A stretch of DNA of 43,475 bases from Ectocarpus siliculosus (taxonomy: Eukaryota > Sar > Phaeophyceae > Ectocarpales > Ectocarpaceae): contig FN649727.1 in NCBI GenBank assembly GCA_000310025.1, forward strand, positions 6,809,201 to 6,852,675, read 5' to 3'. How positions within the stretch are numbered: the stretch's first letter is position 1; the number at the start of each line of letters is the position of its first letter. Under the pieces are notes generated by a model that was given only the letters and a program-made list of their open reading frames with translations, had not been told where the DNA came from and searched no databases. Below are positions 1,116-43,475 of this stretch, in pieces. Made by a program: the position numbers and the translations under genes.

Positions 1116-4068
1116 GCAGTCGATCAATAGCACTCACCATTCCTCCGAAATCTACGGCAATCACAACAGTGCACACATCCCTTCACGTCAAGTCACAACC
1201 ACCGATTCACGGCAAGGTGTTATCCTCGCAAACATCGTGTGCTATTCTCGGGGATGCAGTGCTACGCGTACATCCCCCGAAAGCGACGACCTCGGCTTGG
1301 ACTCCAAGTGGTCATGCGCTCTGGAAGAAGAAGTGTCGTACTGATCTTCGTTGCCCCCATCGAGACCCTTGTGCTCTGTACAATACCGTTCGAGGAACAT
1401 GCGATTGTTTTGGCCAAGCAACACGGCCCCGCACAGCCAATCCGTCGTCCGGCTTGGTGTGCTAGCTGAGCGCGCATGATGACATGGACCGCTGTTCCGA
1501 CGAGCTTAAAGGAATGTCAAGGACGGGTTTCTGCAACAAGGGAGGCTGGCGCGGCTGTTCGTTCGGACAGACAGACGGGAGAGGCGGGAACAGGGCCATA
1601 CAGAAGGAGGCAAGCCCTTCTGGTTACCATCGTTTTTCGCAAGTCAATTCTGGAGCTGCTTCAGTGAAGGGAAAACATTTTCAAGCTTATCCATTGTTGC
1701 ATTCTCCCTGTTTTAGGAAGACAATTTTCAAAGCCCATGCTTCGACTGGCAAACTTATAGGCCTCTCAATAGTGGAACAGGTGATTGAGAGCCCCCCCTT
1801 TGGTTTTGCAGACAAACCAAACCCACGCTTGCACAAAAGCTTGGTGCACCACTCTACCGGGCATTGGCGACTGGGCAGCTGTAGCCACCGTTTTAAAGCG
1901 TACATTTGAACACATGACAACAGATTTCAGACTTCGCACGGCGAAGAACATGCCATTTTGCGTATCAAGACATGTTCGGTGCTCACCTGCGTGGCCAGCG
2001 CACACCGCAGCACCTCTTGAAAAGAAACGTTCGCCGTGAGGTTTCCGTACTGTAGCAAGATCTCCAACCCGTTCAGCATCTTCAAGGATGGTGCTAACAC
2101 CTGTCGAGATAAAAAAATTACGTTTTCTTTCGCGTCACAAGGTTGGGGTTTGCGGTCGGTCCATGTTGCACGACGGCACTTACAGGTCCTTGGCGCTCTT
2201 CGCTTGGGAGATTTGCCTCAAAATGAGTGACAGGTTTGAGGACCCTCAAGCGAAGCATTTACCGATCCTAGATGCACTCCGTTCGGAACTCATCTCCATG
2301 TCTCCAACGCTTTTGGATGACTTGTTTGTCTTATCTCCTTCCTGACGGACGATCAAGACTAGGACGTACGCCTACCACGACCATCAGAAAAATATGGTGT
2401 TCCCCTATCTTGTGCTGTGTCAAACCTCAAGGATAGCGAGGCCCAAACGGATCATGACGTCGTCCAAACGCACAAGGAACAGGTCAAGGGCGCAGAGCGC
2501 CAAGGGCAGGGGGGTATTGCGCGCGTACGCCGTGGTGAACCACTCCGCGCACAGGAACGACATCGGAATCGCCTGGACGGAAGAGGAATCAGGTCGGATA
2601 ATTCGATTGGAATATCGCGGAAGAGAAAATTGTGCGTCGATGTATATAGTGCGGCGTGTTAACCAACTTACAACGCCGGCCCGCTAGTTGGAAACGCCTA
2701 TTTTGAGGAAATGCTCAAGGCCATGGTGTCTCAATGATTGAACATAGGCTATGCAAAACTACCATACACCATGTATTCGTATGGTGGCCGGCCGCTGAGC
2801 CCAGTTTATGCCATGTTTCTTGTTTGTTCGTTTTTTCAAGAACCTGAGCCTCTATTTCTTGTGAGGATGTTTCCTTTTTGAGGCCGGCACTCCATCCGTC
2901 GACGGGTGTTGTGTGGTGATCATCAACAGGGGACTGGCTGCCTGGCTACACATCTCCGACGAGCAACATGCGACACGTGTCCGCTGGTCCGCTAGTAGCT
3001 ACGGTGTGGGTACCAATCCACGGGGACCGGGGCAAAAGGAGGAAACCTTGTGTCAGACGTTGTTGTTTTGGCCGTGGTGGCAAGCGCAAAATGTGCGGAG
3101 TACCTACACCCAATCCGCGAGCTGAACTACATACGCAACGGTTGAATGCGAGAGCGGAAACTCCACCGTGGGGTTTCCCATTTAGGATCCGATTTCTGTC
3201 GTGACCGACGTAATGATGGGTGCTATTATTTGTAACATGTGCGCTGGGCATACGTACGCTGACATCAGCAACGCCGTTTTCGTGTGCGCGTACTCTCGTA
3301 TGACTACATTTTGTGGCGCTTGCGGTTCGCTGAGGGCGGGTAAGCTTCCGTACCTCCTTGCACAGGTGGCCATGAAGTGCCGGCAACCGTCGCTTCAAAG
3401 CCTTCCCGAAGATGCGCACGAGCCGCGGCAGCATCTCGCCCACGACCACCTGCCGGGTCGGCTGGCGAGTGGCAGACCACCACCAACAAGACACATCGTG
3501 CGCGTTAGGTTACAGGCTTCCAAGACTCGACCTCTCTGCGGCAGCTTGCGCATGGAATGCTTGCACAGTTTCCCTGTCGTCAATCTCGTTGTGTGAGGTA
3601 GAGGTTCTTAGCTGGCTTCGCTTGATGGGTCGTGTGTGAGTACAACAACAACAGTATTACCCCCCCCCCTCCCCCTCGATGTTTGCCATCGGGATTGGGT
3701 TTTCGTCGCTTGGCAACGACGTTGTAAAATATGCCAAGTCGCTTCGTGAACTCGGCAACCAGGTTACCGTTTGCTTTTTTTACCTCTGTTTTTTTTTTGC
3801 GGTAACCATGCATGGTGGTAGATCATGTTGTGCGGGGTCGAGAACCCTCACTCCGCGCAAGGGGGATAATCGCACCACGTTGTGTTAGAATGGTCAAGCA
3901 TCCTCGAGCCAGTTACACAGTGCGTATAACTGTCTCTGGAAGTGAAAGCACCAGAAAATATACTAAGTCATACGCAGCTGTCATCCGTACGCAAGAAAGT
4001 AAGCACAAGATGCCGAACACCCTTAGCAGGATGCAGCGCACCCTTCATGCGACTCGCCGAATACCTCA
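1116..4068. other. Spacer with no recognisable gene
   Basis: Only short, overlapping open frames on both strands, none with a recognisable domain, signal peptide or splice logic. A short C-tract (3660-3674) preceded by 'GAGTACAACAACAACAG' resembles the C-tails of the repeat family described elsewhere, but too little flanking sequence matches to call a copy. Confidence 0.5.
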
Positions 4069-4197
4069 CGGCGCTTGGTGATGTGAAAGCCTGGTCCGGT
4101 GAGAACCCGGCGTGCTCCGTCCCGGCTTTGTAGGGATGCGAGGTCAATGGTCTAACGACTACGGCATGCACGACTATGAGTACACCCCCCCCCCCCT
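4069..4197 (+). mobile_element. C-tailed repeat, 3' end copy (subtype 1)
   Basis: About 130 bp nearly identical to 21844-21979: it runs from 'GCTTGGTGATGTGAAAGCC' through 'GGCTTTGTAGGGATGCGAGG' and 'CAATGGTCTAACGACTACGG' to 'TATGAGTACAC' followed by a C-tract. The 'GGTCAATGGTCTAAC...GGCATGCA' core is shared with the copies at 24701 and 40930, which are linked to reverse-transcriptase coding sequence, so this is probably the 3' terminus of a non-LTR element. Sense orientation is taken from that link. Confidence 0.7.
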
Positions 4198-4199
4198 CT

Positions 4200-5864
4200 T
4201 GCTCCGACAAATGCTGGAAATTGTCACCTCTTCCTCCAGTTCGCCCATTTGCCATCCACAGGCCCTGTCCGCACCACCGGTGTCGCGTATAGTGGTGGCT
4301 TTGTCCTCCCGGGGAGAACCGGCGCTGACCACTTTGGAACGGGTATCTCCTTCCGCCATGCGTCGGTGCCCCTGGCCACGAAACGGATATTGGCCATCAC
4401 CGCTCTTCCCCCTAGCAGCAGGTTCGGAGGGCGTTGGGCTCCGAGCAGCACCGAACGCGCGAAAAGTCACCACACGACCCCCGCACAAGTGGTACGCGTC
4501 GAGGAGGTCGACGTCGCCTAGCGGAAACAGAGCCTGCATCACTCGCTCCTGGGAAAGGTCCCCGTTGGGTTTCAGAAGCGTGGAGGCCGTGTCCATGATG
4601 GAGGCACGTTGATATTTCGGAGAGAGTCCCATGGAAGGACCATTCGTTCGTGTACGTACATGTGTACTAGCATCACTCGCGTTTATGGCTCGGTTAGACT
4701 TGATGGCGAAACCATTTTGGTCGAGCGAGTCGCTCTCCATGTCGGACACACCGGGGTGGTTGGAATTCTGTCTTGTCTATGTAGCTTTCACTTTGGGCGC
4801 ATGTGCACCAACACAAAAAAATACTAAGCGAGGTGCTCGTTGCTGCAACAACGAACAGAGCATGTTCTTGTTGACGAGGTACATATGTGACGTGCCCAAA
4901 AGGTACTATCATACATCAGACGATTCGAATATACACGGCACCTGAAGCAAGGTGACCAACGTCGCGTAAGCCATGGCTTCCAGGGGCTCTTGAACGAGCA
5001 CCAGCGCTGCCATGTAGCTTATGCCGGACACGAACTGCAGCGTGGATGCCGTGGCGAAAGCGACTCTGAAGATAGGTGCCAAAGATTGGCAGATGATTAA
5101 CAGGGACGGAGGATACGAGAACAGTTTAGCCGGGAATTGTCCCCCCAAGAGTGGTACCCCGGCGACTGGCGTCCGGAACCTGAACGCGCTTTTTGTTCCC
5201 CCGCTGTATATCGCCACACCGTCCGTCGGTAGTCGCCGAATCAAGTCTATTCGTGGATCGTGGTCTCAAGCTTGACATGTTTTGTGACCCTACCAAGAAC
5301 GCACCTGAACACGGCGTGTTTGGCCCCTCCCGCGAAGTGCGCAGGACATACATGTCCTCCGCCGCCCGACTGAGAGGCCGAAAAAAATCCAGGGCGCGTC
5401 CCGTGGCGTCTCGGCGACATGGTACGATTGACGTCCTTCCACACTCTGGCAGCCAATGCTCTCTTTGCCTTGTTGCAGCCATCAGTATTACTGCCTTTGC
5501 GCGCGCCCTTCCGGCTGCTGATCAAGCGCTGATAGTTGTTCCTGAGTTTACGCTTAACAAGCCCAGTTCTACCTGAGAAATCGGGATAGGTCGAGGTAGG
5601 GGGAAGGAACGCTGAAAATACGAAAAATGCGCCGAGGCAGGCAGACAAGGCGTCCGGCCTGCTTACTCTTCTACAGCCCTCCTTGCTTGCCAACAGCCAG
5701 GCATCGTTAAAAAGAAAGTGCCACCGCGACAACAACACCAGGTAGACGAGGGTTTTGGAGAATAACGGGACTCGACCTAGACATGTCAAAATCACTTTGT
5801 TCCCGTACTTTCGACGTGTGTGCGGTATTACTGTCGTACCCCCGCACTGCGTAGGTCTTTCCAA
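4200..5864 (-). CDS. Uncertain minus-strand gene, membrane-protein-like
   Basis: No family recognised. Three minus-strand open stretches can be joined in phase. One covers about 5864-5310, with hydrophobic stretches such as 'KTLVYLVLLSRWHFLF' and 'ALSACLGAFFVFSAFL'. The second covers about 5240-4950 and contains 'SLLIICQSLAPIFRVAFATA' and 'LQFVSGISYMAALVLVQ', likely membrane spans. It ends at a phase-0 donor CAG|GTGCCG. The third starts near 4780 (acceptor TAG or CAG, phase 0) with a hydrophilic region 'ESDSLDQNGFAIKSN'. An AG|GTGCGT donor near 5308 is phase-compatible with two acceptors near 5190-5210, and a competing frame also reads well, so the first junction is ambiguous. Below about 4450 the frame shifts, suggesting another intron or decay into the repeat at 4197. 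It could be the 3' part of the PDZ gene upstream on the same strand, a separate gene, or a pseudogene. Confidence 0.3.
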
Positions 5865-12977: not shown

Positions 12978-13790
12978 GTCCACGCGTTCGTTGCGTAGAT
13001 CGGTGGTTCCGCAAAAAAAAACGGAAGGAATTGTCGTGGAAAGGTCGATGCCCGATCAACAAACGTAAGGCGGACGGAAGACGGGGGTGGCAAAAAAGTT
13101 GCAAGGAGGGAATTGGGAAAAGACGACGCTGTGTGAACGTGCTCCCGTCAGAAACGGAAAGCCAATCAATACATGTCCTGCTAGTATTCTTTGACACAAT
13201 CGACAGGGCTTCTGACACAGCCTTTCAAACACCCAACAATCTCGAAAGAGAAATTCGCAAGTTGCTGATTGTTCATATTCGGAATTTTTCTATTTTTATG
13301 TTATTTTTTCTCATCAGCGTGAAGTGCGGCCACGGGACACCACCCTGCAACGCGACGTGTAACCTCGCCATGGGTGTCCCCCTCACATGCCATAACATGA
13401 TTTCGCCGCACGTCCATCACGACTACGACGTCATCCCAACCTTCTTTACCGTCGTGCCTACGTGAGGGGGACACCCATGGCGAGGTTACACGTCGCGTTG
13501 CTGGGTGGCGTCCCGTAGCCGCACTTCATGCTGAAGAATAAAAAACGTAGTAGAAGGGAAGTTAGGGTTCACGATACGAGGGCCGCACGTCCGCTACATA
13601 GATTTGTACGTTCTCGGCGTAAATTCTCATATCGGTGTGATTTTTAAGAAGTTCGTCGCGGCAAAAAAAAGTCGAAAAACATTCTTGTGGAAAATGCCGG
13701 TGTTTGACCGTCATATTTTCGTTGTGTGCAAGGCGGACGGAACACAGGGTTCGGAAAAGTTGCCAGCACAGAAGAACTGGGAATGCACCA
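12978..13790. repeat. Diverged direct duplication flanking a fold-back element
   Basis: Segments at about 12978-13120 and 13581-13790 share ordered blocks: 'CGTAGATCGG/CATAGATTTG', an A-run after 'CGC/GGC', 'TTGTCGTGGAAA/CTTGTGGAAAA', 'AAGGCGGACGGAA' and 'AAAAGTTGC'. The second copy is about 60 bp longer between the first and last blocks. A near-perfect inverted repeat (13314-13534) sits between them. The frames are open but lysine-rich and unrecognised. It may be an old dispersed repeat duplicated in place. Confidence 0.45.
13314..13534. repeat. Fold-back element with 73-bp arms
   Basis: The left arm 13314-13386 and right arm 13462-13534 are reverse complements with about 4 mismatches in 73 positions, separated by a 75-bp loop. 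The arms include 'GACGTGTAACCTCGCCATGG' and 'GTGTCCCCCTCAC'. No coding capacity is evident. Such a structure could be a MITE/fold-back transposon or, if transcribed, a long hairpin RNA precursor. No clear target-site duplication was identified at the outer ends. Confidence 0.9.
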
Positions 13791-20540: not shown

Positions 20541-23500
20541 ATGGGGATCACTGGGCTCCTTCCGCTCCTAAAGCCGGTCACCAAGGATGTACATATCAGA
20601 GAGCTCAAGGGTCTGGTGAGCGCCCAGTAATCTGTTTTCAAACACACCCCGCCGCCCGCGCGGCTTGATCAACCGATCCAACTGACCGCTACTGCATGAC
20701 ATTCCCTGCTGCTCGAGTGACCCAGAAATCTGAGCATCGAGATTACTGCATCCCTGTGGTCCCTACTTATCCTGGAACACAGTCTGCTTTCCAATACATG
20801 TGGGCGCAAGTCCCGCCGTGGACTCTCTTGTTGTCGAATGGCAAGCACTCCCTTCTCAGGTCCAAGTTCAAAATTCAAAATTCGACTCGACGGATGTATG
20901 CCACCTGGCTGCTTCCGCATCCACACCATTACCATTACGCCCATTTGCTTGCCGTCCTCCTTCTAGACTGTCGGCGTTGACACGTACTGTTGGCTGCACA
21001 AGGGAATCTACAGCTGCAGCGCGGAGCTTTGCCAGGGAATCGCTACCGACAAGTTCATCAAGTACTGCGTAGAGAGGTAAGGAGACTTCGAGGAACATTC
21101 AATGTTCAATTCCCGTTGTACTTCAGCTGTTGCCCAAGTGCAGCAGCCTCTACTGCTTGTAGGTTGGGATACCCCTTCCGGACCGTTCACTCCACGACAA
21201 AAGGATGGCAAAATCAACTGCTTTCGGCAAGCTGTTAGCAGGACGGTTCCCAAGCCGCCGTTTTCTCGGCATCGTCACTGGCTGTTTATTGCTGCAAAGC
21301 AAGCGAGCTTTGAATTCGGCCCACGGGTGTGGTATCTTGTAACCTTTTTTAACCTCCGATACGTTCGGCTCCCTGCTGTGATTCCTGTCTTCTTTTCAGC
21401 CCGAAACCGTCTGTGTGTGGGGTACGAACAGGCCCAAAATGCTGCAAGATGGTGCAGTTCGTCCAGGCGCAGCGCGATCAAACTGCGCGTTCACCACGCA
21501 CACGACCGGCCCCGAGTCAGTGCGTGTGTTTTGCGTAACCTTCCGGCGGGATAATACACATGTGTGTGTGATACAGCTGCCTGTAAGGCTTTCTCAATCG
21601 ATCATACCCCATGCTTAGGGAGGTGATCACGAGTTTGCCATGTATGTAGGAACCGCGTGGGCTTCCAATGCCAAGCAACGCCTGAGCGCGAACTCCCCTC
21701 CATCAGTTAGGAAGGACACGATTGGACATGGGTGTTCGGCCCACAATGGTCCGTCCTCTCGCGTCAACAACCGCTGAGGCATCCAAACATAAGAGTACGC
21801 TCCCCCCCCCCTCGCCCTCTTGCCGAAAACCAAACGGCGCTTCGCGCTTGGTGATGTGAGAGCCTGGTCCGCTGAGAACCCGGCGTGCTCCGCCCCGGCT
21901 TTGTAGGGATGCGAGGCCAATGGTCTAACGACTACGGCATGCACGAGTATGAGTACACCCCCCCCCCCCCCCTCCCCCCTCACAGGGTTCACCTACTCCT
22001 GAGTCACGGGGTGAAGCCCTACCTGGTGTTCGACGGAGGCCACCTTCCCGCCAAGGCGGGCAAGGAGGAAGAGCGGAGGGCCAGGCGAGAGTCCAACCTG
22101 CAGCGCGGCATGCAGCTGATGAGGGAGGGGAACCCCTCGGGGGCGCACCAGTTCTTCTGCAAGGCCGCCGACGTGACCCCCTTCATGGCGCACCAGGTTA
22201 TCCAGGCGCGTGCATGTATAACAATGAAGATGCCGGGATAATTTACCTCCTATCATTGGTGGTGTGCCCAGTGAAAGACGCCATGATGATCACTAAAATA
22301 CCATATTGATAACCATGATAAATGGCGTTTGTTGTGTGTGTGTGTGTTTTGTCTTCGTCGTTGTGTTGTGTGTTTTCTCTGCTGACACGGTGCCCTCTCC
22401 CTGTCCGGGGGACGCGTGGGGGTGTGCGATCTGTGGCGCCACGAGCATCATGGTGTGCCCGTCACACATGTCACGCGCGCACACACACACCCCTGAGAAC
22501 GAAGATCAAGCCTTGATCGTTTTCACACATTTCACTAATAACTTCTCGAGTGCTTACATGTGGAGCAACAACGACAACTTCAGGCTTCCGGAACCCTTGG
22601 TACAATGGTAACCGCGCGTGGGCTAGAACAAAACAACACAACACTAGCAACAGTAACAACAACAACAACAACAACAACGACGACGACAACAACAACAACA
22701 ATATCAGGTGATCAAGCGGATTCCCGGCGTGCGGTACGTGGTTGCTCCGTACGAGGCGGACGCGCAGCTCGGATTCCTCGCCCGAAACGGCCACGTCGAC
22801 GCCGTCATCACGGAGGACTCGGACATCATGCTCTTCGGCTGCACGCGCGTCGTGTTCAAGCTGGACCGCGACGGGACGGGGCAGGAGGTGGACCTGCGAG
22901 AGGTGTTCTCGCGAAGGTGACCCAGCCGCCAGCGGGAGAGGGGAAAGCGGGAGCGTAAGGAGGGGGGAGAGACAGCTTTGCGTTGCGTCGGGGGTTGGGC
23001 GCGGGGTGAAGGGGCGAGGCGGGGCGGGGAGGGAGAGTAAAGAGGGAGGACCGTGTTGCGTTGCATCCGGGGCGGAGGGTGGGGGGGGGGGGATACTCAT
23101 GTTTTTGTTTTGCATGCCTCAGCGGTTAGATGCCATTGGAACCACGCGTCTACGAGAGGACGGAGCATTGTTCACACGGGGGGGGGGGGCGTCGTGTGGA
23201 GGATTGGTCGCGATTGGTCTACTACATCGATCGGTCTCTTCGCGCGATCTATGCAGAGCGGGTTGTGCACGGGGCAAAGGCTGGGGTGCTGCAACGAGAA
23301 TGTTTTGCCGCATTGGCTGTCTGTTGTACAACTCCCTCGTGGTCGCTGCTTTTGGCCTGTTTGTTGCCCTTGCTTTCCCTTCATGTCCTCAACTTTCTTG
23401 CTGAGCTGGCGCCGACTGAGTTTTTCGTCTTCGTCGAATGTTCCCGGCAGGAACGACGAGCTCGACATGCGCGGCATGAACGAGGACGACCTGATGACGC

Positions 23501-26500
23501 TCTGCGCGCTCTCCGGCTGCGACTATCTCCCTTCGGTGCACGGCATGGGGCTCAAGAAGGCCTACCGGATGGTGTCTCGTCACAAAGAGGCGAGTGCCAT
23601 CGCAGCAAACCCTGCCATCATCTGGGTGGGTATCTCGCCCCACCCACACCGTTGGCAAATTGTTGCTAGAGAACCTTCCTCCAACCAAAATCAGCCGTCG
23701 GACCTATCCTATGGTATGGTTAGTGAGCATAGGAGTGGAAAGAGAGGACGTTTGCTGAGGCCCTGCCGCCCCGTTTCCTCTCCTCTACCCGTGGCAGCTG
23801 CCGAAGATCTTGAGAGCGGTCAAGTTTGACTCCGCAGGGTCTTTCCCCCGTGGCTACGAAGCGGACTTCCAGCGAGCGTTGCTCACGTTCCGACACCAGG
23901 TATCTACGTGTGGCATGATTGTCAATATCGTTGAATCATTCGTGTGGCGAATCGGATAGAAAGAGCGTCACAGTGAAGTGATTGTTTTCCTCGTTTCTCC
24001 GGCGGACAACGTGTTTTTGCAATCCGCGTCTGGTTCTTGACTCCCTCTTGTAGGCTCTCACCCCTATTTTCGCCTCGTGTTTCGCTTGCTATCTGTTGGC
24101 CCCTTTATTTTTTGTCGGGCCCAAGCATGGAAGAATGCTCACCGCGAAAAAAAAAACAGGCCATGAAGATAACGGTGCATACACTCCGCCACCACCTTTA
24201 CGTCCACCGTTTGCGTACGTAAAGGCAGACGTGGCATCAATCACCCTGTGCAGGTTGCCGAGTGTGCGATGGTCCTTCCCTGTCTTCTCTGCGATCCTTG
24301 CTACTGGCGAGATCACCTCCGGCACACCACTTGTCATTGCCGTTGCGATTGCTGTTGTTGTTGATGTTGTCATACTCTACAAACCGTCCCAGTCTCTGCT
24401 CAGTAGCTTGTAACATCCGTACCGGTCTAGCAGACGCGGACGTGGTCGTAGTCACAGGCCAACTACCCAACGAGGGTACATGCAAACTTTGGAAAAGTAA
24501 ACAGAAAGCGAAAGGACCCAGAAAAATCAACAGAGTTGCTTCCCACCATTTTTCTCCCGTGTTTTTGTCGTTGTTTGTTGGTGGTGCGACCCCTGTTCGC
24601 CCACCTTGCTCTGTCTTGGGAACTAGCGATTCACCTCTACCCCCCACCCCCATTCTCCCGGGTAGGCAAAACATGTTGGAGTCAACTACTTTGGCGAAGT
24701 AGTAAGGAACGGCCGGCCATCGTTGGTGATCGGTCCTGTGGGAACAATGCTCCGTCCTCTCGAGGACGCTTGGTCAATGGTCTAACCGCCAAGGCATGCA
24801 AAACATAAGTACGCCCCCTCCCCCCCCCCCCTCGTGCTCGCACCCGTCATGGCAACGACAGCGAGCGTTCGACCCCGTGTCCCGCAGCGTGGTGCACATG
24901 ACGCCGCTGCCGGAGATCTTGCCGAGCGCCATAACGACAGCACCTTCTGCAGCTAACGACGGAATGGGGCCCCGTGATTTGGATCGCGCCGCCGCGCTGG
25001 CCTTCCTGGGTGAGCACTGGCATGGGTCTGTGCTCTTCCAAGTCGTGTCTTATGGCACGGGAGTAGTAGTGGGGGGGAGGGAGGGGGGGTTCCGTTACCC
25101 GCAGCGGAACAGAGTGTGACACATAGCGGTTTGGTCACGTCTCGCAAGGTTAAGGTTATGTGTATTGTTGTCTCCCCGAGGTGCTTCGTTTCACCGGCGT
25201 GCTCCCTCGGTCGAGGTTTTCGCAGTCTGTGTGTCGCCCTATTTGTTGTGAAGGTCATATACCCTTCCGTTTCTGGGCTCGTCACCAGCCGGGGTCACAC
25301 AAGAGGTGACGTACGTCCTAATTCATTTCATCATTTTGTCCCTCGCTCTTCTCTTCTCTCGTTCCTTGTCTCCCTCCTACATACGTGAAGACTACTGCTG
25401 TGTACAGATTTGTAGTTATTTCTTTTTAGTTCGCTGAGGTTCGCTGCGGGCTCTTCAAGTAAAAAAAACGTGAGCTGTGTGAGCTGCTCGAGCTTGGGAA
25501 ACGCCACACCTGGCAGCTGATAGCCAGCTGTGGGCTGGCCCTGCTAATATACTGTGTATTATTGCAACTTGCGTCACCCCCTTCATGACATGTATGGTGC
25601 TCTCATGAGCCCACTCCCGAGGGATCACCTGCATGTACATAAAAACAAACGTGTTTCTCTTATCCAGTGTCGCTCGGCCCCGTGATCTACCTCGTCTGTC
25701 CACCCCAAAGGCCCTCCGGTTGAGCAAGAGAGAGGGTGCGCCGTCGCCGACGGCGACGTGGACCCCATCACCGGGGAGACTTTTTCGGAGATGGGAGGCC
25801 GGGGGGGGGGAAAGGACGGCGCGAAGAGTGAGTTTGAGCTCGAGGGCTGCTGCTGTCGGGCGGCCAAATTTTGCTCCCGCCACAAGGTCCAACCATAATG
25901 AATGGCACCAGTAGGTAGTTGTCGTCGCTGGCCTCTGCATGTTCGTGCCCCGGGTGCAGACGGCCTTGTCTGCCGACTACCACGTGATAGTGAGTACCCC
26001 GGCCCCCTTCCCCTTGCACCTCCTTCTCTCCGGCCACTGTGGCGCGGGAGAATCAATCCGACTCTGCTGTTTCGACCCACCGACAATTTCTCTGTTGACC
26101 GCTTGACAGCACCAGAGAGCGCCATGAGCGAAGCGGCGGCCGCGGCGCTGGCGGCGTGGCGAGGGGGCTCCGTGCCTGCGCCAGGCGGCGGTGGTGGTGC
26201 GGGGAAAACGAAGAAGCTGTCCGCGCAGGGCAACAACCTCACCAAGTACTGGGGCGCGCCGCTGCCCTCCAAGAAGTCTGGCGCCAAGCGTTTCGGCGGT
26301 GGCGTGGCCGCGGGCCGCGGCGGCTTTGAGCTCGGCGGCGCCGGCGGCGACGGCGGCGCGACACCTGACCGCCCCCCGCGAGTGGCAGGCTTCCGCGGTG
26401 GAGGGGCCGCCGCATCCCGAACGCTGGAGAAGGTGCGGACAGAAACGTTGGGCGTCGGTAGCTCTATTTTTGTCACTGGCTGTTTGGTAGAGGGGGCTGT

Positions 26501-30392: not shown

Positions 30393-33468
<3,076 letters not shown>

Positions 33469-33757: not shown

Positions 33758-36700
33758 ATGGTTAGATTTCTGGTGGCATTGTTGGGGGTTGTGGCGGTGG
33801 TGACTGTCTTTCCGGAGGGTAGTGCTGCTGGTGCTGCTGCTGACGAGGAGCAAGGCGGATCCAATGACCAGGTCAAGATTGGAGAGCTGTATCAAGGGAG
33901 GGTCGAACCAAAGGAGTGGATTCCCATCACGCGGAGCAGCACTGCCCCTCAGCCGGTGAGGACCAGAGTGGTACTGGAATAAGTCACAGCAGACGCATAC
34001 AACACGATCAGCTTTCTTGGAGAAGAGAACAAGGAACACGAGCCTGCTGTACCTCACTCAAATCAAGCTGCTGCCGGTTCTCAATCTCCTGTCCCCGTCC
34101 GTCCGTGAGGGGAGCTCGGAACATCGCACATCACCCAGAGGGTTGGGAAGAGAGAGGAGAGCAGGGTCCCCGTGCTTCTACCTGAACGGCTGAACGCAAC
34201 AACTCTAGACCTTGCCTTTGGAAGGTGTTTCTCTACAAATCATATTTGTTGATGTTGTGGACTAATTGTAGACTAACGAAGGAGGGCGCACGCTCGCGCT
34301 CATTATGCATACCGCTGTCGGCTGTCAGTGGTTCCACACTCTCCTCCCTACAGGCTGGCGTCTGAGCCGGTAGCTGCACCGAATCCTGTTCCCTGGACCA
34401 GTTCCCCCAGAGTTGCTGCTGTTTACATGCTGATACGATACCGATGGATCAAAGGCATCCATCACCATGCTGGACCCTAAATGTATGCATACTCACGAGC
34501 CCTTTTTTTCAAATCCTCCATATCCCTCCGCAAATCGTTTTCACTGGTCACTGGTCTCGCTTTGTACTCGTACACCTCAAGAGGAATGCGCCGCTGTCGC
34601 CGCTGAAAGACCTTGTGCAAGACCAATGTTTAGTTCCCTTGTGTACCGGATTGAACAGTTGTGTCGTTTGTATCCTGCCCCGTGTACGGGGCAAACTGAT
34701 GTGGAACTCGGCCGCCACCAATTGGATGTACCGAAACTTAACTTCTGCAACAGAAGTATCTCCTCTCACAGCAGTCAAACAGCAGTGCACTTTCAGACAT
34801 TACGACGTCCCACTCTCGCTTCGTCCCCCCCTCCCCTGGTCGACGCAAAACAACAACAAACGTTAGTATCCCCCCGAAACGGATTCATGGAGCTACACCG
34901 ACACCACCCTGTGGACGGGAATAGCGTCCTTCCGAGACCCGCAGTGCGGCGAGACCCTGTTCAACCTCTTCAGCAAGGCCAGCTACCCGGAGCGCCTGAC
35001 GGCCGGAGTGGTGCAGCAGAACCTGGAGGACGACGAGGGATGCCTGGCGACCTACTGCAGGCTCATGGGCGAAAAGGTGTGCGTTCTTGTTTGTTGCGCG
35101 ATGGCTTTTTGCTTCTTCTCCGGTGGGAATGCTATGCACATGTGCAACCTTTCCGGGCGTGGTGGATGGATGGATGGATGGATGGATGGATGGCGTGTGT
35201 GTGTATTGCTTATTGATTGAAAATGTATACATCAATTAAAATTAAATCCGGCTCTGTGCGTAGGTCCACGGTTCGACAGCTGAACGGCTGTTTCTGTACT
35301 CCTCTGTGTACCCCCCCCCCCCCATTGCTCACGCCGTCGGCTGCTGTGTAGGTTTTTCTGTATTCAACAGGTTTGTGTCTCTGTGTACCCCTACCGCTCA
35401 GGTCTCATACGTTGCAAAGGGATGATCGACTCTGTGTACCCCTACCGCTCAGGTCTCATAACGTTGGAAAGGGATGCTCGAGATTGCTTATTGCGTTGAC
35501 TCTCCAGATCTCCAGGTATTAATTATGTTGGCTCTCCTGCAGGCAGAGAGACGGAAAAACAGATTAACGAAACTAGACATGTATGCGCGTTCGACGGACA
35601 GAAAATATAAAAGCAGAAAGAAAGGTTACAACTGCACTGCAACCGAAGGCGGTCTCGCTTTACACTGCTGCTCTCTCTTCGTTTCTGTCTCTGTCTCCCT
35701 CTCGCTCGCTCTCTCTTGAATACCGTATGGAAGTAAGAGTTATCTGGTGTCATGTTTGCGCGACGACTTATTATGCCGCGTACCGAAGCGGGTTCGAATC
35801 ACGTCTAGCCCCCGTGATTTTCTACCCAAAGAAAATATATGCTCTTGCGTCCCCCAACACTGAAAAGAAAAAAACAAAAAAACGCATCCAACCTTGATTC
35901 GTCGGTGTATACAACCTGTTGTCCAGAGTGTGATTCAAACATACTTCTATATATTTTCGGAAGATACCCAGGAAAAGGCCCAGTTTCCAGTCGGTTTCAA
36001 TCCACTTACTGAAAAGTCTTCAACACATCCCTTTCGACTGAGGTTATATCTCGAACGGGTAGTCTTTCTGTGAGGTTATGTTTACTTTCTAAAAAGTGTA
36101 TACGTCACATGGTGCGGAGAAGAGCCGTCCAACTTGGCATCCTCGCTATACGCGTGTGAAGGAGGCCCAGAGAGTCCGCACTACATATTAGACAAAGGTT
36201 GTAGACGTCTTGACACTTTGCAAGGTGTTCAGGGTGGTGGATGGATGTGTAGATGGCGTGCGTGTCAATAGACGTGTTGGCGTGTGCAAGTTGCGCGGTT
36301 CTCACTGCTGCTGTGTAGGTAGTCAACACCCGCTGAATTTCGTTGCACGCACTATTAGTGCACCTCCGGAGGGTAACCCCGTGGCTCTCGAAACAACGAA
36401 ATCCTGGGCTGGGCACAGCCGCGATCGGCGCTTTTTTTGTAGGCCGTCCGCGGCTCGATTTTCGGTCGTTCTGGGTAGTGGTGTCTGTCGGTCTTGAGAA
36501 ATTTGAAGGGTGGGGTGGCGTCGAGAGGGGAGCTCCTCATGTGTGGTTTTTGCTCGACTTTGGTGGTGGTGCTTCGCACGGGTCAGGTCGAAGCGGCGAA
36601 GTCAGGGCTTGTGATTTTGTCCTCTTTTCATGTCTTCTGCACCCGCACGCGACACCAGGTTTCTTTCATTCTTGCAGTCCCCTATGACTACTTGCAAAGC

Positions 36701-39700: not shown

Positions 39701-40860
39701 CACTCCACCGCCGCCCTTGTCGCAGCATCGCTCGAAAGAAGCCCCCCAAGCCATGGATAATCCTTGCCTGTAGTGGCACCCTGATGCTGCTGCTGATGTT
39801 GCTGCTGCTGCTTCTGCTGCTGCTGTTCTGCTGCTGCTGTTGTTGTTGCTGCTGCGGTTGCTGCTACTGCTGCTGCGGTTGCTGCTGCTGCTGTTGCTGC
39901 TTCTGCCGCTGCTGCGGCCGCTGACAGGCCATCCACGAGATGACGGAGCCGAAGCTGACGACAACGTGGGGGGCGGGGTACTCCTTCTCCAAGTGCCACG
40001 CCGAGCGGAGGGTCCCTTACGACCCTAACCTGGACCGAATCTTCGACGGAGAGGAATTCTCGAAGATGGCCAGGCTCTGGACCAACGGGTACGACGTCTA
40101 CACCCCTCGCAGAGGTCACCTCGTGCACGACTACAGCCACCCCCACCACGCACAGGTACGTTATGCACCGGGAAGGCTTGTAGGTGGCCATCATTGTTGG
40201 CAATCCTTGCCGGTGTGATCATGTGCGTATTCACTTGTTGAGCTTCCGCTCTTTCAGGCTTGCAAGTTCCGTGAGCAAGCTCGGCAAGGCCTCAGCGCAC
40301 GGGCGAGAGGGGGGACACGCTCTCCGTCGGTGTCTGCGTTGAGCTTCCCCTTCTTTTTTTTATGCCACCCCAACCACCGAACCGTTCATCGGGGAGGATG
40401 GCGAAGTGTAACCACTTTTGGCATGATCGCATGTGCTGTGCTAAGTACAAGTACCTGTTGGCTCTTCGTTGTTCCGGTACCGGAGTCGAATATTATTTTG
40501 CATTGAACGTTTTTCGCGAGAAGAAAACATTTCCGATGGGGTCATGTTGGGCTTTAGCAGCGTGAGCCAGCAGTCAGCTTGACCACAAGTAGAGGCGGCG
40601 AACTTGCCCTTACCTCCAAACCTTCCCCCCGGCCCCTCTCTTTGCTTTTTTTTGCGGCGCAACTTCAGACGACTTCCTGGAGAAGCAACAAAAAGGTGGA
40701 GGGGGACGGCGGAAAGGACCGACAGAGGTTGGCCAACCAGCGCCTGTGGAACCTGATGGAGATGCCGCGGTCTAGCAAGGAGGGGAGCAAGGAGGTTCAG
40801 GGCGACCCCTGGGGGCTAGGGGATCGGCGGACGCTGGACGAGTTCATCGAGTTCACGGGG
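33758..40860 (+). CDS. Secretory GlcNAc-transferase-like glycosyltransferase (GT60 type), 3' end open
   Basis: Exons 33758-33955, 34867-35076, 37150-37245, 37932-38041, 38990-39122, 39928-40155 and 40669-40860 join in phase to 389 residues so far. The family is that of the Skp1-hydroxyproline GlcNAc-transferase (Pfam GlcNAc). Visible marks: 'LWTGIASFRDPQCGETL' at about 80, 'ASEAQGPCWARHL' near 155-167, the metal-binding D-x-H in 'QVDSHMDFVEGWD' (D182, H184), 'WGAGYSFSK' (263), 'VPYDP' (278), 'FDGEE' (288), 'LWTNGYDVY' (300) and 'WGLGDRRTLDEFIEFTG' at the end. The start at 33758 gives a hydrophobic leader (MVRFLVALLGVVAVVTV), a signal peptide or anchor, so action in the secretory pathway is likely, unlike the cytosolic Skp1 enzyme. 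An in-frame ATG at 33632 exists but would bury that leader. The last exon ends at a plausible donor GGG|GTGAGG; no convincing next exon was found. Read through, the frame stops at 40977 inside a retroelement fragment. Confidence 0.85.
35163..35192. repeat. (TGGA)n microsatellite in glycosyltransferase intron 2
   Basis: About seven perfect TGGA/GGAT units just downstream of exon 2 of the glycosyltransferase gene. Confidence 0.9.
35379..35481. repeat. 51-bp tandem duplication in glycosyltransferase intron 2
   Basis: Two adjacent copies of a unit starting 'CTCTGTGTACCCCTACCGCT' and ending 'AAAGGGATG(A/C)TCGA', at 35379 and 35430, nearly identical. A C14-like tract lies just upstream (35311-35324). 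Confidence 0.85.
35978..36100. repeat. Dispersed repeat, copy 1 (glycosyltransferase intron 2)
   Basis: About 120 bp: 'CCAGTCGGTTTCAATCCACT', 'CCCTTTCGACTGAGG', 'TTATATCTCGAACGG', 'TCTGTGAGGTTATG' and 'TTTACTTTCTAAAAA'. The reverse complement recurs at 41648-41770 with small indels. Confidence 0.8.
39128..39296. repeat. 86-bp tandem duplication with G-rich core
   Basis: Two copies, each with 'AAGAGGAAGGAGAGAGC', a G7 run, 'TGGAGGTGGGGGTGATACAC' and 'GTTGTGTACCA', spaced 86 bp. It begins just after the predicted donor of glycosyltransferase exon 5 (39122). On the minus strand each copy ends in C-rich sequence preceded by 'GTGTATCAC', reminiscent of the C-tailed repeat ends. Confidence 0.85.
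39781..39924. repeat. Long imperfect (CTG)n tract at glycosyltransferase intron 5 acceptor
   Basis: About 140 bp of CTG/TGC triplets with interruptions (CTT, GTT, CGG), running straight into the acceptor 'CCGCTGACAG|GCC' of exon 6 (39928). It is pyrimidine-rich enough to serve as the acceptor tract. The long minus-strand Ala/Gln/Thr-rich frame over it is a by-product. Confidence 0.9.
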
Positions 40861-40929: not shown

Positions 40930-41560
40930 GGGCGCGGGGGGTGCGTCCTCTTATGTTTTGGATGCCTTAGCGGTTAGGCCATTGACCACGTGTCCTCGAG
41001 AGGACGGAGCGTTGTTCCCACAGGGCCTATCACCGATGGTCAATCGTTCCTTCCTAGTTTGCCAAAGGTGGCTCAAAAACGTCTGGCCTAGTCTATCTAT
41101 CCTTTCGATATCACTTCCCGCCTCTTCAACCCACTTCCAATGCCCCAGTACAGCTACCGTCTTCTCCTGGCTCTTCCAGGCCTCAAACACATCCCTGTAC
41201 CTTCCCTCTACTTTTCCCAGCTCAGTCATGTACACTTTCCTCTCCTTCTTGTACAACCGACATTCCGCTACGACATGAGCACGGTCTTCGCACTCGGAGC
41301 CGCAATCACATTTAAATCTTGTCGGGGTGGGGTATGTAATAGACGCGTCAGTTAGTCATGTGGCCGTTCGTCACCTGAGGAACAGCAGAGTCTGTTTTAG
41401 TCCCTTGTTTTTCTTCCTGATGGAGAAATGCTGCCGGCTAACGTACTCTCGAAGCAACGCGGCAATCATATCGCTGGAAAACGGTCCCCCCGCATACCAA
41501 AGAACTCGAACCGTCTGCGGCGGCGGTGGTCCGAGGACAGACCGTTGCCACCCCTCAGCT
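40930..41560 (-). mobile_element. 5'-truncated LINE fragment (reverse-transcriptase C-terminus)
   Basis: On the minus strand, 'RFKCDCGSECEDRAHVVAEC' followed by 'RLYKKERKVYMTELG' resembles the Cys/His zinc-knuckle end of LINE-type reverse transcriptases. Translation continues to 'SHLWQTRKERL', 'GDRPCGNNAPSSRGH' and 'VNGLTAKASKT', stop, then a C-rich end near 40930. Upstream (41345-41560) related sequence such as 'QVTNGHMTN' is readable only with frameshifts and stops. The element is therefore a dead fragment, inserted antisense to the glycosyltransferase gene. It defines the 3' end of the C-tailed repeat family seen elsewhere. Confidence 0.75.
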
Positions 41561-41770: not shown

Positions 41771-43475
41771 TATTTTGAGTTTGTGTAAGCCTTACACTGA
41801 GTTATCAGTGATGCCAGTTGGTGCTAAGAACAGAAGCATCTGTATAGGGGGATACATTCTTAACACATCCCCTGTAGTTTTGTACTGGGTCGACGACAGA
41901 ACTATCGGGGAGAAGCTCTCCGTTATGTCATGTGTTATAGAATGTGGCCTTCACAGGGAACATGGCGCAGTGTCGTTTGACAACTTGCTGTTTATAGAAA
42001 GTACTTCGTACTGCTGTTTTGAGACGATATGAATCTAGACTACAGGTATGTACAGCAGTAGGACTGTTGTACACCCATTAAAATGTTTTTTTTTTTATTT
42101 CAAAAGTTGGAGTTGTACTGTAGATTTGAGTATTTAGCAGCTGTTTCTCGCTCATTTTGAAATTTACAATGTTATATGTTGTTCATCGCGTGTGATGAGT
42201 GTAGGTGAAACGCGTTGAAGGGGAGGGAGATACATAGGATAGCAGGTTCGGAGTGATATGGATTTGCAGCAATGGAGTTTTGTCCTCCTTGTGTGTAGTG
42301 TATCAGCGAGGCAAATGAGCAGGCGGCGGTCAGCACAGCAAGTAGAGTTGCAGTCAATGTAGATAGAACTTCCCTGTTTTTCTTCGAAATGTGCGTGTCG
42401 AAGAGTGTCGTCGAGACCATTTGTAGCGTGTCTCAGCCATGTTGTAGAGCATCCATCATGAAGGGCAGTAGCAGCAGCAACGGGGCGGAGTCGATTTGTA
42501 GTGGATCTTAACTGGTACACGGCGAAAGGTACACACGCGTTGTATCCAAGTACATGTTTTGTTTCTGTTTTGTTTCTTTCGAAAACCCAACAAGTTATAA
42601 TAGTGTCTTACACAAAGAGGCATGGCACGAAGATCATGGAAAATATTCACCACACGGAAGGATTCACAGCACCAATTTCCAAACAACGATACGATAAACC
42701 GCGCGAGTAGTGACCCCCGCGTTCGTTGAAGGGAAGCCGCCGTCCAGCTTTGAACACGTTACATCTACTCGGCCGTCTGTCTGAATGAGACATCGATGTT
42801 GTTGCATACCTGTGTCGCTTTGGTATGCCGTCGCCGACGCATCTAAGTGTGTATGTAGATGGGCAGCACAACCGAGGCGGATAGCCAGGTTGAACCGAAC
42901 CTCTTCTTCCCGAAAAAAAAAGCACACTGGATGCTGCATCCCGGTAGTCGAGCTTTTACAGAACCGCGTGTTCTCGCCACATGCTGTGCTGCAGAATGGG
43001 CGAACAACGATCGCACCCCCTCCCCCCCCCCCCGTCTGTACGCTGTATTATATAATACGGACTAGTAGTATATTGAGTTTCTGTCTTTCTGCATTTTTTT
43101 TATAGTGATATTCAATATTCAGTCCAAAATTGTATGATTCTAGTGATCCAGAGTTCAATGCCACTTATTGAATATGTGATGTAGAATGCGTTCGTAATAT
43201 CATAGTGGGGCGTACACAGAACACGACGTATACTAACCCAATAACTGCCCGGGGGATATCGGCAGGATTCTAGTGTACAGACTATTCAAAATTAAACTAA
43301 GTTCTGACTGCTTTTCTTCAGCTGCCACTTAAAGTTAATCGTGGCGACTGGCATGGTAGATGCATATATGTTGTTGTTCGCAGTACTACCTATGGTGGCC
43401 AGTTATTCGTATTCGAATGATAAACCTATTCAATCAATTCCTGTATCGACATTGTTAATCCCATCTTCCATCCTT
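41771..43475. other. Right-end region, no firm gene
   Basis: More AT-rich than the gene-bearing part. A plus-strand frame at 41775-42032 (85 residues, 'ICIGGYILNTSPVVLYWVDD') reads protein-like but matches nothing I know. A good acceptor-like site (CTTTTCTTCAG) ends near 43320 and could lead into a terminal glycosyltransferase exon, but the encoded sequence is not recognisable. A C-tract lies at 43016-43032. Confidence 0.4.

Follow-up and report, generated by a model that had tools for sequence, protein, structure and literature searches.

An EXO1 gene on the plus strand

The window analyzed here is a stretch of 43,475 nucleotides from Ectocarpus siliculosus (contig FN649727.1, positions 6,809,201 to 6,852,675 of the forward strand). 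It carries an EXO1 gene, in which seven exons were placed by reading frame and protein alignment and an eighth is predicted:

20541-20615, plus strand: exon 1
20967-21076, plus strand: exon 2
21077-21985, plus strand: intron 2 (GTAAGG...CACAG), 909 nt, set by frame and gapless alignment
21986-22196, plus strand: exon 3
22708-22916, plus strand: exon 4
23451-23625, plus strand: exon 5
23798-23899, plus strand: exon 6
24862-25009, plus strand: exon 7
about 25711, plus strand: predicted start of exon 8

When spliced, exons 1-7 (20541-25009) give an open product of 343 amino acids that contains XPG_N (1.8e-23) and XPG_I (1.2e-22) in Pfam searches and aligns over residues 1-322 with Exonuclease 1 of PDB entry 3qea, which we take to be the human protein (E = 1.6e-76). 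The alignment is gapless at both the exon 2/3 and the exon 6/7 joints. The first-pass annotation had proposed that an acceptor with the sequence CACAG joins exons 2 and 3 in frame, and the model agrees: splicing from the donor that follows 21076 to the acceptor whose last base is 21985 keeps the two exons in frame. Of the nine AGs listed in the interval 21876-22038, all but two, which end at 21985 and 22003, would break the frame, and use of the second would remove six residues from the aligned stretch. The sequence thus gives good support to 21985 as the predicted acceptor of exon 3.

Pyrimidine fractions in the tract region range from 0.67 to 0.81 at four of the five EXO1 acceptors that lack the element tail described below. 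The fifth, that of intron 3, has a fraction of 0.33 and no pyrimidine tract; an (AAC)n array (22627-22707) reaches almost to it. Since this acceptor follows the array without a tract, a pyrimidine tract seems not to be strictly required in EXO1. An acceptor-like sequence with a strong tract, TTCCTGTCTTCTTTTCAG, lies at 21382-21399 within intron 2 with no modeled exon after it, and perhaps marks a cryptic or alternative exon.

C-tailed repeat copies in and around EXO1

A profile search of the window recovered six copies of two related repeat families, A and B; the profile was built from these same six copies, and the next match has an E value of 1.5.

4054-4196, plus strand: copy A1, C12 run at 4185-4196, no acceptor identified beside it (profile 1.2e-27)
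21701-21811, plus strand: copy B1, C10 run at 21802-21811 (profile 9.6e-19, alignment, duplication test)
21820-21972, plus strand: copy A2, C15 run at 21958-21972, 13 nt before exon 3 (profile 6.1e-27, alignments)
21973-21985, plus strand: last 13 nt of intron 2, TCCCCCCTCACAG, outside the sequence common to A1
23081-23177, minus strand: copy B3, antisense in EXO1 intron 4 (profile 4.1e-22)
24634-24663, plus strand: C/T-rich flank directly 5' of B2 in intron 6, pyrimidine 0.80 and C 0.60 over 30 nt
24664-24831, plus strand: copy B2 in intron 6, C12 run at 24820-24831, 30 nt before exon 7 at 24862 (profile 9.9e-28)
40936-41355, minus strand: copy B4, the longest, C6 run, true 5' end undefined (profile, ORF)

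B1 lies directly upstream of A2 in the same EXO1 intron 2. On the minus strand B3 is flanked by a C12 run on both sides (23081-23092 and 23178-23189). Judged by eye, A1 and B4 may be antisense to neighboring genes. Runs of 10-13 C residues were also found at 3660-3669, 35311-35323, and 43022-43033, where no copy was recognized.

Exact patterns found no external copies in viral contigs, and a DNA search of phage records found none either. One pattern run against genome contigs gave a single 19-base match, in a bacterial MAG, against about 15 expected by chance given the size of the collection; this match was not used.

Anatomy of the element

The B copies share a common 3' core and differ in their 5' extents, which is the pattern of 5'-truncated LINEs. 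All six copies end in a simple tail of variable length, with C-runs of 15, 12, 12, 12, and 10 nt, and of 6 nt in B4. B4 contains an open frame of 134 amino acids (41355-40954) that ends in TAA, 9 nt before the C6 run, and B2 retains this reading frame and its TAA, 5 nt before the tail. Within the B4 frame is a CX1CX8HX4C motif, which occurs twice elsewhere in the six-frame translation of the window. Motifs of this type are typical of LINE C-termini, and the B4 frame is read here as the putative C-terminal end of a LINE protein. At the three codon positions B2 and B4 differ at 3, 2, and 3 sites, which gives no coding signal. The B4 frame had no Pfam match below an E value of 0.2 and no PDB match below 0.07; in viral contigs, 11 pattern matches to the B4 protein were obtained, none of which was confirmed, and in phage records there were none. 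A single-sequence fold of the frame was uninformative (mean pLDDT 36), and all copies in the window are too short to contain a reverse transcriptase or endonuclease. Because credible relatives are lacking and the fold is uninformative, it is from this anatomy that we infer the copies to be short 3'-terminal pieces of a non-LTR (LINE-type) retrotransposon that has a C-tail. The A copies have the core and tail of the B copies but an in-frame stop further upstream, and may represent a related LINE or a dependent short element.

An origin from a SINE or tRNA was considered, as the core sequence TGGTCTAAC resembled a pol III A box, and was rejected. ARAGORN found no tRNA in the window, and the three Rfam matches obtained at E values up to 5 all lie outside the copies and belong to no relevant family; moreover, the B4 frame reads through TGGTCTAAC to its stop.

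Ectocarpus is reported to contain thousands of copies of LINEs and LINE-dependent elements, including some very short families, many of them intronic (PMC12477816). Like the copies described here, its RTE-X, RTE, and CRE LINEs and LINE-dependent elements are abundant, often short or 5'-truncated, and often located in introns; none of the passages listed from that study mentions a C-tail at acceptors.

Copy A2 and the intron 2 acceptor

A2 is 93% identical across 135 nt to positions 4071-4205, and a gapped alignment of A1 with A2 reaches about 20 nt further 5' (88% over 160 columns). Both copies begin near the sequence CTYGCCGAA (at about 4054 and 21820), A2 having 7 extra nt. The C15 run of A2 is followed by TCCCCCCTCACAG and then by the GG that opens exon 3. 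The first-pass annotation had described a repeat running straight into this acceptor, with its end at 21979; the sequence bears out the copy with its C15 tail and the acceptor, but the shared repeat ends at about 21972. TCCCCCCTCACAG is similar to TCGCCCTC, which lies 5' of A2, and the two may constitute an imperfect target-site duplication.

The last 25 nt of intron 2 contain 22 pyrimidines. Twelve belong to the C-run and ten lie beyond it, in sequence that is not common to A1, so the earlier proposal that all pyrimidines within 25 bp of the acceptor derive from the C-tail does not hold. The more limited claim, that the tail sits where the pyrimidine tract of an in-frame acceptor is expected, is borne out by position and sequence: the tail lies directly before the AG of an acceptor that EXO1 needs.

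The branch point of intron 2 probably also lies within the element, together with most of the tract, since the C-run ends only 13 nt before the exon, and these 13 nt contain no likely branch point. Going upstream from the acceptor, the first AG is one inside A2 that ends at 21953, which leaves 32 nt before exon 3 (TACA, the C-run with its context, and the 13 nt), and a branch point outside the element is therefore unlikely. A branch point close to the tail is more likely, unless it lies upstream of the AGs within the element. One candidate of that kind, CTAAC at about 21925, is less likely because two AGs, ending at 21947 and 21953, intervene before the acceptor.

It could be supposed that splicing uses another AG and that the C-tail plays no part. 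Tracts composed only of C are thought to be weaker than U-rich tracts, and use of the 21985 acceptor in RNA is predicted here from the DNA. However, the conserved protein requires the exon 2/3 joint, and the sole other in-frame AG among the nine listed, that at 22003, deletes six of its residues; we regard this as very unlikely.

Sense copies end near acceptors

All three sense copies within the seven modeled EXO1 introns end near an acceptor. The distance from tail to exon is 13 nt for A2, 30 nt for B2 in intron 6, and 13-21 nt for B1 if A2 is discounted; as now placed, B1 stops 174 nt short of the acceptor. A single 3' end placed at random in the 4141 nt of EXO1 intron (a total that counts intron 7 one base too long) would fall within 30 nt of an acceptor with P = 0.051. 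The derived probabilities are about 1.3e-4 for three copies, 2.6e-3 for two independent introns, and 0.0075 with B1 as now placed; like the flank tests below, these position tests are post hoc and based on few copies.

C-rich sequence flanks the insertions on their 5' side

In the 20 nt preceding the 5' ends of A1, A2, B1, B2, and B3, the mean C content is 0.61 versus 0.267 in background windows (P printed as 0.00000), with the 5' ends set by eye and the background windows overlapping. B4 was excluded, its 5' end being undefined. The upstream flank of A2 is the tail of B1; with A2 dropped, the mean is 0.562 (P = 1e-5). A run of at least four C residues occurs in these 20 nt in four of the five copies, compared with a background of 0.065. 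The exception is A1, whose 5' flank is weakly C-rich (0.45, P = 0.086). The 30-nt flank of B2 at 24634-24663 is matched by background fractions of only 0.012 for its pyrimidine content and 0.005 for its C content, and we read it as the likely older pyrimidine tract of intron 6. Beyond the tails, on the 3' side, the enrichment in C is weaker than on the 5' side (0.43 over 20 nt, P = 0.003), and counting all pyrimidines over 30 nt gave P = 0.10, or 0.27 without A2. The C-rich 5' flanks, with a less marked 3' side, suggest that priming by the tail takes place on pre-existing C/T tracts.

Target-site duplications could not be established, as the flanking sequence is too simple. For A2, P was 0.024 against random sites and 0.25 against shuffles. 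For B1 the values were 0.042 and 0.106 with A2 taken out, and otherwise 0.36 and 0.68, or 0.07 and 0.29. These two cases are suggestive at most, and duplications at A1, B2, B3, and B4 were not significant against random sites or shuffles.

The same observations bear on a further proposal of the first-pass annotation, that the element created or moved the intron 2 acceptor, or gave rise to the intron itself in the manner of introners. The main tract of the present acceptor, and probably its branch point, are contained in the element, and intron 2 also has, further upstream, an unused acceptor-like site (TTCCTGTCTTCTTTTCAG, last base 21399). Nevertheless, both the donor and the AG that is used are outside the element, the protein has neither an extra nor a missing residue at the exon 2/3 joint, and the flanks were already C-rich. 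Four of the six copies (A1, B3, B4, and B1 as now placed) have no identified acceptor after the tail. Introners resemble the EXO1 case in being mobile elements that contribute splice signals, but an introner creates an intron and either carries or recruits the two splice sites (PMC9860276). Here the element (21820-21972) is not the intron (21077-21985): intron 2 is a long composite of 909 nt with two insertions near its 3' end. Creation or movement of the acceptor is thus very unlikely.

Proposed target-primed insertion into existing acceptor tracts

The reading that we favor, with confidence somewhat above even, is that the 3' ends of a C-tailed LINE were primed at C/T tracts that already existed, and so landed in acceptors rather than creating them. 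The C-tail of the RNA would pair with a G-rich 3' end at a nick and thereby enter target-primed reverse transcription, and insertions would thus fall in C/T tracts on the sense strand of the element. Pyrimidine tracts at 3' splice sites are of this kind, so sense copies would end just before acceptors. In intron 2, a B copy would have landed in the acceptor tract, after which an A copy would have inserted between the C-tail of the first and the AG. The B copy of intron 6 would have divided a long C/T tract in two. The original AG would be retained, with the tail taking over as the pyrimidine tract, and the branch point of intron 2 would probably come from the element as well.

Alternatively, these may be ordinary intronic insertions that lie near acceptors by chance, with no targeting of tracts, and that are harmless as the AG is kept. 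In Ectocarpus, 34.1% of transposable element bases are reported to be intronic and 81% of genes to have a genic insertion (PMC12477816). There are only three sense copies, target-site duplications are not established, and the intron 3 acceptor, lacking a tract, indicates that tract changes may be neutral. Against chance placement stand the location of all three EXO1 sense copies near acceptors and the C-rich 5' flanks, and we hold it to be possible but doubtful.

The favored insertion of C-tailed 3' ends into existing tracts can be extended to a family that homes genome-wide, in sense orientation, into acceptor pyrimidine tracts through priming by its RNA tail while keeping the AG. This broader proposal is speculative, and we consider it unlikely. 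Were it true, 3' splice sites would be renewed repeatedly, tail for tract, with the splicing signal itself serving as the safe site. Genome-wide enrichment of sense copies at acceptors would mean that a retroelement targets a splicing signal and replaces it with its own tail, and would tie target-primed insertion to 3' splice site turnover and intron lengthening. If there is no such enrichment, the EXO1 copies are one more instance of tolerated intronic insertions.

Comparison with known retroelement tails at splice sites

The use of retroelement tails as pyrimidine tracts is already known from antisense Alu elements and the merle SINE. The closest case is the merle SINE at the intron 10/exon 11 boundary of dog PMEL, where the original acceptor is contained in a 15-bp duplication and poly(T) acts as the tract (PMC7349775). 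Like A2, it is a retroelement at an intron/exon boundary whose homopolymer tail has the role of a tract. It differs in being antisense, in having poly(T), and in disturbing splicing when the tail is long, whereas the EXO1 insertions are in sense orientation, C-tailed, from two families, and of no known effect. In antisense Alu exonization the element tail likewise provides the polypyrimidine tract (PMC2639721), but the Alu is antisense and generates new exons, while at EXO1 the AG is outside the element and the exon belongs to a conserved protein. In an exonized mouse L1, a short truncated copy provides an acceptor with a tract derived from its polyadenylation signal (PMC2176070); there the site is antisense, inside the element, and begins a new exon, unlike that of EXO1. 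Among the literature matches listed, as represented by titles and the beginnings of abstracts, none describes a C-tailed element at acceptors. EXO1 differs from these cases in the sense orientation, in the C-tail, and in having one acceptor with copies of both families and another acceptor of the same kind in the same gene.

Other features of the window

Pfam was searched with 20 of the 101 stop-to-stop ORFs of at least 120 amino acids, and with the B4 frame as a 21st. Among the 20 ORFs, actin was clear, TFIIA and GlcNAc matches were below cut-offs, and 17 had no match. The actin gene lies on the minus strand at 30399-33462 in at least three parts, with tblastn identities of 80.4%, 81.9%, and 74.4%; an Rfam match to mir-3533, below cut-off, is located inside its coding sequence. 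The TFIIA match below cut-off is in a 275-amino-acid ORF on the minus strand, which contains a CTG/CAG array at 39781-39923. An inverted repeat at 13304-13544 has 83-nt arms that are 92% complementary and 75 nt apart, and a tandem satellite with units of about 190-214 nt occupies positions 1-1047.
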